From Aggregatilinea lenta (GTDB taxonomy: Bacteria; Chloroflexota; Anaerolineae; Aggregatilineales; Aggregatilineaceae): a stretch of DNA of 64,000 bases. Position 1 is the stretch's first letter. Each line of letters begins with the position of its first letter. Below are positions 19,039 through 54,683 of this stretch, piece by piece. The stretch is taken from the NCBI RefSeq assembly GCF_003569045.1, contig NZ_BFCB01000001.1, forward strand, positions 341,189-405,188, in the 5' to 3' direction. Both the position numbers and the translations under genes were made by a program. The notes beneath the pieces are model-generated. The model saw only the letters and a program-made list of their open reading frames with translations, was not told the DNA's origin and did no database searches.

Positions 19039-20838
19039 TTACGCCTTCCCGGTCAGGCCCGCGACCTCGCGCGGCTGGCCCAGGCGCGCCCGCTCCTCGT
19101 CGATCACTTCCGGCTCCAGCTTGCGGAACAGCGGCTCCGGCTTGCGCAGCGCCTGCCCGACAGGCAGATCGCCCGCCGCCCAGTGTCCGATGGCCTGCGA
19201 GTTGTCGATGGTCAGTGCTTCGTGTGTGCGCTCGGATTCCTCGTACGTGACGATCTTCTGTTCCCCGAACAACTGGCCGTCGTAGCCGAGGAATTCGTGC
19301 ACGCGCTGCGAGCTGAACGGCACGAACGGCGCGAGCAGCGTCTTCAGGTTGTCGATGCAGCGCAGCGCGGTGTAGATCGTTGTCGCGGCGGCCTGCTTGT
19401 CCTGCTTGACCACCTTGAACCACGGCGCGTAATCGAGATAAGCGTTCACCTCGCGCGCCAGGGCCATTGCCTCGGCCAGCGCGTCGCGCAGCTTGACCGC
19501 ATCCAGGAGCGCACCGACCGTCTGGAACCCGGCTTCGGTCTTGGCGATGATCTCGCGGTCGAAGTCGCGCAGGTCGCCCGGCTGGGGCACGGTGCCGTCG
19601 AAGTGCTTGGCCGCGAAGCTCAGCACGCGGTTGACCAGGTTGCCCCACGCGGCCAGCAGCTCCGTATTGTTGCGCATCACGAAGCCTTCCCAGCTCCAGT
19701 CGGAGTCGCGGGTTTCGGGCAGCGTCGTGGCGATGTAGTAGCGGATCTGGTCCGGCGCGTAGCGCTCCAGAATGTCGGGCATCCACACCGCCCAGTTGCG
19801 GCTCTTGGAGAACTGTTTACCCTCGATGTTCATGAACTCGTTGGCGGGCACGTCGTAGGGCAGGTTGAGGTGGCCGTCGCCCTCGTTCGCGTACAGCCCA
19901 TCGATGCCGGTCAGCTCGGCAGGCCAGATGATCGTGTGGAACTCGATGTTGTCCTTGCCGATGAAGTTATACAGCTTGGCATCCGGGTTATACCACCACT
20001 GCTTCCAGGCGTCAGGCTGGCCGGTGTTTTTGGCCCACTCGATGCTGGCGGTCAGGTAACCCATCACCGCCTCGAACCAGACGTACATGCGCTTGGTTTC
20101 CCAGCCCTCCAGCGGGATGGGGATGCCCCATTCGATGTCGCGTGTGATCGGACGCGCGTGCAGGTCCTTGGCCTTGTTCTGCGACACCTTGAGCACGTTA
20201 TCACGCCAGTGCTCTTTGCCGCTGCCGAGATATGTTTCCAGCGCGCCGATGAAGTCGTCGAGCGCCAGGAAGAAGTGCTCCGTCTCGCGCACGACGGGGA
20301 TGCTGCCGTCGATCTTGCTGCGCGGGTTGATCAGGTCGAGCGCGTCGAGCAGCGAGCCACAGTTGTCGCACTGGTCGCCGCGCGCCGGTTCGAAGCCGCA
20401 CACCGGGCACTTGCCCTCGACGTAGCGGTCGGGCAGGAAGCGGTGTTCCGTCTCGCTGTAGAGCATACGCTGCGTCTCGCGGTGCAGGTGACCGCGTTCG
20501 AGCAGCAGCAGGAAGATATCCTGCGCGACGCGGGTGTGATTTTCCGTGTCGGTATGGGTGAACAGGTCGTAGCTGATGCCCATCTGCTTCTGCGTTTCGA
20601 GGAAGCGGTGATGGTAATACTCGAAGACTTCGCGCGGCGTGATGCCGAGCCGGTCCGCCTCGACGGTAATGGGCGTGCCGTGCGCGTCCGAGCCGCTGAC
20701 GGCCAGCACGGTGTTGCCCTTCATGCGCTGGTAGCGCGCGAAAATGTCGGCGGGTAGGTAGCACCCGGCGAAGTGACCGGCGTGCATGTCGCCGTTGGCG
20801 TAGGGCCAGGCAAGCGAAACGTGAATGAACTCTGGCAT
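19039..20838 (-). CDS. metG: Methionyl-tRNA synthetase
   Basis: The 599-residue class Ia synthetase charges tRNA-Met. The HIGH motif appears as HAGH at 19-22 and KMSKS as KQFSKS near 341, a natural variant. A zinc knuckle CPVC...CDNC lies near residues 143-157, and the anticodon-binding domain follows. There is no C-terminal tRNA-binding (EMAP/Trbp111) domain. AGAGGA lies about six bases before the ATG. Directly upstream is a strongly promoted structured RNA that ends in a terminator. Confidence 0.97.
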   Translation of the reverse strand: MPEFIHVSLAWPYANGDMHAGHFAGCYLPADIFARYQRMKGNTVLAVSGSDAHGTPITVEADRLGITPREVFEYYHHRFLETQKQMGISYDLFTHTDTENHTRVAQDIFLLLLERGHLHRETQRMLYSETEHRFLPDRYVEGKCPVCGFEPARGDQCDNCGSLLDALDLINPRSKIDGSIPVVRETEHFFLALDDFIGALETYLGSGKEHWRDNVLKVSQNKAKDLHARPITRDIEWGIPIPLEGWETKRMYVWFEAVMGYLTASIEWAKNTGQPDAWKQWWYNPDAKLYNFIGKDNIEFHTIIWPAELTGIDGLYANEGDGHLNLPYDVPANEFMNIEGKQFSKSRNWAVWMPDILERYAPDQIRYYIATTLPETRDSDWSWEGFVMRNNTELLAAWGNLVNRVLSFAAKHFDGTVPQPGDLRDFDREIIAKTEAGFQTVGALLDAVKLRDALAEAMALAREVNAYLDYAPWFKVVKQDKQAAATTIYTALRCIDNLKTLLAPFVPFSSQRVHEFLGYDGQLFGEQKIVTYEESERTHEALTIDNSQAIGHWAAGDLPVGQALRKPEPLFRKLEPEVIDEERARLGQPREVAGLTGKA

Positions 20839-20913
20839 GGGTGTCCTCTTCCGTTACTGCTAGGGTCCCGTGGACCTCGAAACATTGTAGCAAGGGCGCG
20901 CCGGTGTAACCAA

Positions 20914-21072
20914 TAAAAAACCGCCGAAGATCATTCGACGGTCCGCTTGCCGTGGTGGTGATGGCCGGGGCGCTAGCGCAGCGCAGCAGGCCATCGCCGG
21001 AGGGAATCCGGCCACGGCAAGCGCGGCATGCGCATCAGGGTGCGCCCGGAGGTATCAAACAGCGTGTTCATA
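20914..21072 (-). ncRNA. Candidate structured RNA or metG leader ending in a terminator
   Basis: A near-consensus promoter (21079-21107) drives about 159 bases that end in a hairpin (20921-20941, CCGTCGAA pairing with TTCGGCGG) followed by TTTTTT. Inside, CTTGCCGTGG and CCACGGCAAG (20946-20955, 21011-21020) form a perfect ten-base closing stem; it encloses GATGGCC/GGCCATC and a CCGGA/TCCGG hairpin, i.e. a three-way junction. A GCGCA/TGCGC hairpin lies at its 5' side. No reading frame of note. The metG ATG is 76 bases past the terminator, so this is either a stand-alone small RNA or an attenuated metG leader. No T-box sequence is present. I do not recognise the class. Confidence 0.6.
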
Positions 21073-21078
21073 TCGTTA

Positions 21079-21107
21079 ACTATAAGGGGTTGGGCGGCCA
21101 GTGTCAA
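21079..21107 (-). promoter_or_regulatory. Near-consensus promoter of the metG-upstream RNA
   Basis: On the minus strand TTGACA (21102-21107) and TATAGT (21079-21084) are exactly 17 bases apart, the best promoter match in the window. Confidence 0.88.
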
Positions 21108-21127
21108 CGGCGGGAGCATACCCAGAA

Positions 21128-21133
21128 TATAAT
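21128..21133 (+). promoter_or_regulatory. Probable -10 element for the small gene at 21179
   Basis: TATAAT lies 46 bases before the ATG. No good -35 is seen; it overlaps the upstream edge of the divergent minus-strand promoter, so the two may interfere. Confidence 0.5.
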
Positions 21134-21178
21134 ATGCTTCTGAATGACTTGAATGAGGTGGACTCAGGTAGGGGCGAA

Positions 21179-21412
21179 ATGAATTTTCAGGAACTATTCT
21201 GGCAAGCCTTGAGCGAACAAGATCCCGTGTCTGCACTGCGGCAGGTACTGATCGATCTGCGCGCGAAAGGTATCGAAAAAGGTATTCTACTCAAAGAACT
21301 TGGAGCTTTCCGTCAGGTAGCAGCCCGCAGAAGCGAAGAAGACGAGGACAACATATTAGACGTGATGGATTTTTTAGTGGGAAATTGCAGCCCGCATATG
21401 CTGATTGACTGA
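21179..21412 (+). CDS. Small hypothetical protein
   Basis: The 77-residue protein starts at an ATG preceded by AGGGG. It appears all-helical: FWQALSEQDPVSALRQVLIDLRAKG, then GILLKELGAFRQVAARRSEEDEDNILDVMDFLVG. There are no Cys pairs, signal or membrane segments. Codon use is AT-richer than in neighbours, which may mean recent acquisition. An upstream in-frame ATG at 21134 is possible but would overlap the -10. Family not recognised. Confidence 0.65.
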   Translation: MNFQELFWQALSEQDPVSALRQVLIDLRAKGIEKGILLKELGAFRQVAARRSEEDEDNILDVMDFLVGNCSPHMLID

Positions 21413-54579: not shown

Positions 54580-54675
54580 GGGGGTGTATGAGTCCCGGTG
54601 GGCTTCCCGGTCTTCAAAATCGGCGGCGGGTCGCGCAGAGCGGGCCGCGGTGGGTTCGACTCCCATACACTCCCG
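54580..54675 (+). tRNA. selC: tRNA-Sec (UCA)
   Basis: The 96-base sequence folds as tRNA-Sec: a nine-base acceptor GGGGGTGTA/TACACTCCC, anticodon arm CCGGT-CTTCAAA-ATCGG with anticodon TCA, a long variable arm (GCGGGTCGC with GCGGGCCGC, one mismatch) and T arm TGGG-TTCGACT-CCCA. Discriminator is G. It reads CC then T after it, so CCA is not fully encoded. The extra-long acceptor and variable arm with UCA anticodon rule out a suppressor Ser or Trp tRNA. Confidence 0.95.
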
Positions 54676-54683
54676 CCTTCTTC

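Follow-up and report, generated by a model that had tools for sequence, protein, structure and literature searches.

What is the structured RNA that lies directly in front of metG in Aggregatilinea lenta, and does it control that gene? The window, by which we mean the whole stretch of 64,000 nucleotides analysed, carries metG, the methionyl-tRNA synthetase gene and presumed target of regulation, at 19039–20838 on the minus strand (TIGR00398, 478 bits with a cut-off of 336). A first-pass annotation, made from the letters of the window, had described a promoter, a structured RNA and a terminator ahead of metG and had offered two explanations, a riboswitch-type attenuator of metG and an independent small RNA. 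Elsewhere in the window, at 54580–54677 on the plus strand, a selenocysteine tRNA gene points to selenoprotein synthesis in this organism.

The leader RNA and its conservation

All the elements that the annotation had listed were found in place. The promoter, on the minus strand, consists of a −35 box TTGACA (21102–21107) detected by promoter-site scan and, 17 nt further on, a −10 box TATAGT (21079–21084), with 11 of 12 consensus matches. Counts of such signals alone are not above chance, with one promoter site found against 0.5 expected and two terminators against 1.2 expected in 1.3 kb. The RNA from 21072 to 20914 (minus strand) has a predicted folding energy of −76.3 kcal/mol (z −4.84), equalled by none of 200 shuffled sequences, and its predicted fold comprises a closing stem P1, a three-way junction, two inner hairpins and an intrinsic terminator. 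P1, which emerges from folding and covariation, joins the 5′ strand CGCTTGCCGTG (21013–21023) to the 3′ strand CACGGCAAGCG (20944–20954), so that 21023–21013 pairs with 20954–20944; the closing stem of the annotation is real in this fold, with a length of 11 pairs, not 10. Folding and covariation also give hairpin P2, GCCGGA-UUCCC-UCCGGC (20996–21012). Hairpin P3 (20960–20995) comes from folding and is weaker in the alignment, where 83.8% of its cells are paired. The intrinsic terminator hairpin with its U tract occupies 20915–20943, as judged by terminator scan, folding and covariation, and metG starts at 20838, 76 nt past the U tract. Two features had escaped the annotation: a leader ORF at 21071–20973 and a likely second promoter at 20892–20884.

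By BLASTN the element is present in 15 of the 18 genomes of the window's family (E ≤ 6.5e-5), and most weaker matches are short and due to chance. Two of the three genomes without it are ones in which metG was not found (G004, G006); the third, G005, has metG at locus L031 with no detectable leader or terminator. A covariance model built from the 15 family sequences was matched 43 times at E ≤ 0.01, within 42 of the 154 genomes of the order, and 36 of the 43 lie within about 230 nt ahead of metG on the same strand, 13 of them in the window's family and 23 in other families. Among the remainder, two are on contig pieces of the window's family where metG was not found and one is ∼650 nt upstream of metG; four are unlinked to metG and were taken as chance (E 0.003–0.008).

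In an alignment of 44 matches (A4) 93.5% of cells pair, compared with 82.6% when the 3′ letters are shuffled and 30.6–50.6% when partners are slid, and 23 of 28 pairs show changes on both sides, the terminator included; since A4 was fitted to the model structure, with 15 of the 44 rows having built the model and 49 sources chosen by hand, these pairing and covariation counts are favoured. Two other alignments, A2 and A3, were kept out of the counts, and 6 of 53 matches in one model search are reverse-strand reads of the same hairpins. Covariation in relatives and a scan of Rfam were the checks that the annotation had proposed, with missing conservation or an unrelated known family as grounds for dropping its claim: the stems covary, and no unrelated family turned up in the element. 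At the gathering score Rfam has nothing relevant in the element across the whole window, and the T-box, SAM, 6S and SRP models were not matched, which bears out the annotation's own remark on these four at Rfam thresholds. With the limit relaxed to E ≤ 10, the region 20800–21200 yields a single match, due to chance (Pinc, E 5.9), and a plasmid collection gave short chance matches only.

Methionine codons and the start of the leader ORF

The minus-strand ORF at 20973–21071 encodes the leader peptide MNTLFDTSGRTLMRMPRLPWPDSLRRWPAALR, and Met-rich ORFs occupy the equivalent place in relatives, with peptides of the same kind such as MNTVIRVSTGVWSAMMRMPRLPWSDPLRRWRCARG, MENQPLRITGMMMQSPRWLGSRNARRWHFGRG and MNTFSRDMMTMRMPLPQRDRRQ. 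Its ATG at 21071 is 7 nt past the −10 box and coincides with the predicted transcription start or adjoins it, and its stop codon TAG (20975–20973) falls within P3, 29 nt ahead of the terminator. The candidate sensor codons, ATG-CGC-ATG at 21027–21035, follow a pattern, ATG-NNN-ATG, that all 15 of the 15 aligned family sequences share and whose middle codon varies. The last Met codon stands 17–18 codons ahead of the stop in 12 of 13 family leaders, and the thirteenth has one more Met downstream. In one relative, L014, a one-base gap follows the Met codons, so the leader reads on in another frame; the stop is nonetheless at about the same position.

To judge the Met codons across the order we used 76 regions upstream of metG from eight families (f1–f8, the window's family being f1), drawn from 143 metG-bearing genomes: 16 from the BLASTN-matched set and 60 added. 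One of them (L037) is mostly N, and two loci on which metG was not found (L007, L010) are excluded from the 76 but present in the alignments. We defined a Met cluster as two or more internal ATG codons in a span of five. ORFs with such a cluster are found in 59 of the 76 regions in sense, in 7 in antisense and in 9.8 on average after dinucleotide shuffling (20 rounds, maximum 18). With at least three Met in five codons the numbers are 33 of 76, 0 and 0.35, respectively. When all 20 amino acids are compared in this way, Met has the largest excess of sense over antisense (59 to 7) and Phe the second largest (47 to 19). A Met-cluster ORF with an intrinsic terminator behind it is found in 58 of 76 sense regions and in none of the 76 antisense ones, which leaves 18 regions failing the combined detector. 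A stricter detector passed 55 of 76, and these 55 leaders were used for terminator spacing, complementarity, start geometry, arm swaps by family and folding; their stop codons lie 16–54 nt ahead of the terminator. Four f7 leaders (L032, L033, L035, L040) have a single internal Met in an otherwise similar layout and are perhaps weaker or decaying sensors.

Outside the order, the full architecture is seen in 7 of 40 sense and 0 of 40 antisense regions from other orders of the class, a sample taken from the 103 genomes in which a match was found. A set of 76 GTDB loci with sufficient upstream sequence, which partly overlaps by genome with the other samples, has 25 that pass the detector, all 25 titled as Chloroflexota groups; no actinobacterial or dehalococcoid locus within those 76 passes. 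Two loci, L160 and L165, have Met-rich leaders of another build upstream of metG (MIVLLTVMMVMRKGRVSP... and MAVVMFMAMRKGADSP...), also with terminators, and their MetG proteins are only 55–56% identical to that of the window. The Met-leader trait may be wider, or may have arisen more than once.

A promoter scoring at least 9 of 12 ends 6–7 nt ahead of the leader ATG in 13 of 13 family leaders, and a near-consensus promoter stands 6–7 nt ahead of the in-frame leader ATG in 32 of the 55 leaders (f1 13/13, f2 15/18, f4 2/4, f7 1/2, f8 1/9); this spacing was not found in f3 (0/6), f5 (0/1) and f6 (0/2). Other distances between promoter and ATG are rare, with three cases at 9 nt, one at 10 nt and single ones at 25, 26 and 30 nt, and none of 193 other ATGs, taken as control, shows the 6–7 nt spacing. 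Leaderless genes are recognized, in PMC3160421, by a TANNNT box whose first T is about 12 bp ahead of the start codon, and the first T of the −10 box in the window is 13 bp ahead of the leader ATG, in agreement with that description. As the ATG is only 7 nt past the −10 box, the leader mRNA in the window is probably leaderless.

The layout of a leader-peptide attenuator is present, with an ORF that holds a cluster of cognate codons and an intrinsic terminator between its stop and metG. Because a Met-codon ORF starts at or next to the predicted 5′ end of the RNA and stops just before the terminator, a switch operated by Met-tRNA is the most likely function. We regard it as highly probable, from the comparison of these sequences, that the element is a ribosome-mediated attenuator of metG transcription by which the cell senses charged methionine tRNA.

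Could the three-way junction be an aptamer of a riboswitch that binds methionine, SAM or another ligand? The junction is stable and covarying and the sequence of P1 is strongly conserved in the family alignment, but Rfam gave no match above chance, and the junction is in part coding sequence, on its 5′ side. Moreover, f2 keeps the Met codons and the terminator, yet the f1-based covariance model hardly recognizes this family (4 matches, E 0.005–0.008, only one near metG). This reading is extremely improbable. The attenuator proposed in the first-pass annotation is upheld by the Met-codon leader and the terminator; its riboswitch-type part is not supported, because the evidence points to a translated Met-codon leader peptide and not to a ligand-binding aptamer.

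A proposed switch at the terminator and a probable second promoter

Attenuation by the leader peptide could proceed as follows. The 5′ strand of P1 begins only 3 nt past the last Met codon and so lies within one ribosome footprint of it. With ample Met-tRNA the ribosome would reach the leader stop and P1 would form, leaving the 5′ arm of the terminator free, so that transcription ends. With scarce Met-tRNA the ribosome would stall at the Met codons and cover the 5′ strand of P1. The stall would free the 3′ strand of P1, and either this strand or the segment after P2 would hold the terminator 5′ arm; if the arm is held long enough, RNA polymerase would read through into metG.

The first-pass annotation had suggested a search for an alternative antiterminator pairing, and its outcome differs between families. 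In f2 a leader segment, e.g. GACAGACGG, is complementary to the 5′ arm of the terminator, e.g. CCGUCUGUC; in 17 of 18 leaders it lies 11–23 nt past the final Met codon of the cluster. Compared with shuffled sequences, such complementarity has p < 0.05 in 10 of 18 f2 leaders and in only 2 of 37 others, so f2 has a likely antiterminator that is visible by complementarity. For the window's type, where a switch pairing found no support in arm swaps, we only infer an antiterminator, and in the modelled folds it is just the direction of change that agrees with it. In f1 P1 is predicted to keep the terminator 5′ arm free: the predicted pairing of this arm before the 3′ arm is made is 0.14, compared with 0.46 in shuffled sequence. 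Blocking P1 raises it to a mean of 0.39 in f1, and in the window the value goes up to 0.47 from 0.05; with the ribosome at the stop codon it is predicted to stay at 0.14 and 0.05, respectively. Several results speak against taking this scheme as complete. The stalled-state value of 0.39 for f1 is no higher than that of shuffled sequence (0.45), and in the window with P1 blocked the terminator remains the minimum-energy fold, with an occupancy of 0.93.

When arms are swapped among 44 sequences, a sequence's own arms turn out to be the poorer match, with 1999 of 2000 permutations at least as good, and the same holds within f3–f8 (4847 of 5000). For f1 and f2 the result is marginal (332 and 303 of 5000 permutations at least as good). 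Two candidate pairings were rejected. One is CGAUGG, located after P2, with CCGUCG of the terminator 5′ arm, which is kept in most f1 sequences and is unsupported by arm swaps; CGAUGG is also retained in relatives whose terminator arm has changed. The other is a hairpin of only 4 bp, ACGG/CCGU, that would join the 3′ strand of P1 to the terminator arm; it was seen in 9 of 13 f1 sequences and in 1 of 24 other non-f2 sequences. An antiterminator formed without a ribosome in families that have no second promoter fails for f4 and f8.

These results bear on another possibility, that the leader peptide has its main effect through translation, mRNA stability or Rho and not through the intrinsic terminator. 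It would fit a window-type antiterminator that is weak by folding and finds no backing in arm swaps. It is harder to reconcile with the terminator itself, which is conserved, covaries and keeps within the above range past the leader stop in all 55 leaders, and with a putative ribosome-binding site of metG, GAGGA at 20848–20844 (assigned by eye), that is more than 60 nt beyond the terminator. We therefore consider action away from the terminator very unlikely, and retain transcription attenuation as the preferred explanation.

Downstream of the terminator, at 20884–20892 on the minus strand, a conserved motif marks a putative extended −10 promoter, TGCTACAAT. TG[TC]TACAAT occurs in 14 of 14 f1 sequences examined, 47–66 nt ahead of metG, and L031 is among them; the exact motif is found in 1 of 62 sequences from other families. 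Given the conservation of this box, metG of f1 can probably be transcribed without the attenuator, and the box probably provides basal, unattenuated expression. In the attenuation scheme such a promoter past the terminator would supply basal metG transcripts in f1. At L061 (f5), L058 (f3) and L047 (f8) the end of the terminator is 25, 33 and 42 nt from metG, and a search limited to this promoter type found no extended −10 box. With the terminator so close and the motif not seen, metG at these three loci seems to depend on read-through.

Another alternative is an independent small RNA that happens to lie in front of metG, the gene being served by its own extended −10 promoter alone. Such an RNA would have its own strong promoter and terminator, as this one has, and the motif present in all 14 f1 sequences examined, among them L031, where metG is present without the leader, is in line with it. 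Against it, the element is fixed to metG in the 36 of 43 model matches described above, its Met codons are invariant, and the search for that promoter type found none at the three loci just mentioned. Leaders with cognate codons and the same start geometry before hisG and proS, to which we turn below, argue in the same direction. The small RNA proposed in the first-pass annotation is thus very unlikely.

Leaders of other genes and known attenuators

The promoter and spacing pattern alone has 5 strict matches in the 6.2 Mb genome, and the reversed pattern has none. Among the five are the metG leader and one that opens MNVQAQFHAHHHGITPG with a stop codon, followed by a terminator and then hisG (L211 1537–1590, plus strand; own genome, C1:149444 region), a His-rich leader of the leaderless type. 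Three looser patterns, with up to one mismatch, yield 47 matches, most of the others being without such a leader; one, picked by eye from the 47, opens MNANYSLPVPTGCHNRPALRRWSVR with a stop codon, followed by a terminator and then proS (L216, minus strand; own genome, C2:508816–508854 region). At 19 of 28 hisG loci in relatives, including all 16 of the loci analysed in the family, the gene is preceded by a His-rich leader with the 7 nt spacing; at another locus, in f3, a His-rich ORF is present but the promoter spacing is not. For proS, 13 of 20 loci have a leader with this spacing, and 11 of these 13 leaders contain a P-x-P motif; two more proS loci show a P-x-P ORF that is not so spaced. One hisG locus (L309) and three proS loci (L279–L281) were left out of the analysis. 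A very short ORF, MRHHH with a stop codon (L243; own genome, C3:98239–98276), directly follows a promoter with this geometry and lies a short distance ahead of another ORF; it may be due to chance.

Mean numbers of internal Met, His and Pro codons are 2.77, 0.85 and 2.46 in 13 metG leaders, 0.25, 5.44 and 1.94 in 16 hisG leaders of the family, and 0.54, 1.23 and 2.23 in 13 proS leaders, a set that includes L271, which is without the promoter spacing, and excludes L272. The Met and His signals are gene-specific, since these means differ with the downstream gene. The Pro count by itself shows no such specificity, and what supports the proS case is that P-x-P stands at a conserved position.

It is tempting to see here a family of leaderless leader-peptide attenuators in this lineage of Anaerolineae, covering at least Met for metG, His for hisG and Pro for proS. 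Since both initiation and elongation of the leader require Met-tRNA, the Met switch of such a family would have to separate elongator from initiator charging, and the second promoter of f1 or a ribosome-free antiterminator of f2 would keep an essential gene from locking off when initiation fails. We put this forward tentatively, as a reading with somewhat less than an even chance.

How does this element compare with known regulators that sense tRNA charging? T-boxes bind uncharged tRNA directly. T-boxes of aminoacyl-tRNA synthetase genes do the same job, read-through of a terminator in response to tRNA charging, and PMC2494555 reports them in two Dehalococcoides genomes. Unlike them, the metG element has no Rfam match to a T-box, and its presumed sensor is a translated ORF.

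A further case comes from mycobacteria: work by Canestrari in 2020 reportedly describes leaderless polycysteine ORFs as attenuators of cysteine operons. They resemble the metG leader, itself apparently leaderless, as short ORFs with a cluster of codons for a single amino acid, in their case cysteine instead of methionine. In PMC1262725 the candidate cys leaders of Mycobacterium are reported without obvious terminators. The His-rich leaders of Firmicutes, in front of his operons and hisS paralogues, resemble our case as attenuation outside Proteobacteria and differ from it in amino acid and phylum (PMC2965389, PMC9413887). Before its own Firmicutes case, and with the atypical ermC leader set aside, PMC2965389 (2010), in the sections available, knew of leader-peptide systems in Proteobacteria and Actinobacteria only.

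An open-access literature search brought up no Met-sensing leader-peptide attenuator of metG; an earlier prediction in the Lopatovskaya 2010 survey is possible. The name metG is absent from the available portions of PMC4833913, PMC2965389, PMC1262725 and PMC13236596. Leader-peptide attenuation as such is already known; this case stands apart by its specificity for Met, its phylum and a start that appears to be leaderless. What makes methionine special is that every protein also begins with its tRNA, and the element makes it testable how a shortage of elongator Met-tRNA is told from one of initiator Met-tRNA. Three specificities with one start geometry are a ready set for examining how attenuation works on leaderless mRNA, in a phylum that has received little study.

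Attenuators of E. coli have clustered cognate codons, alternative structures and an intrinsic terminator. The trpL, hisL, leuL and pheM-type leaders of Proteobacteria and the trp, trpS and leuS leaders of Actinobacteria are like the metG element in their short ORF with cognate codons, terminator and cognate gene, and have alternative RNA structures such as are proposed for it (PMC1262725). For methionine operons of Actinobacteria the same paper reports that a conserved upstream RNA structure is absent. The metG element differs from the classical attenuators in its Met codons, in an AUG apparently at the very 5′ end, in its occurrence in Chloroflexota and in a closing stem with a three-way junction.
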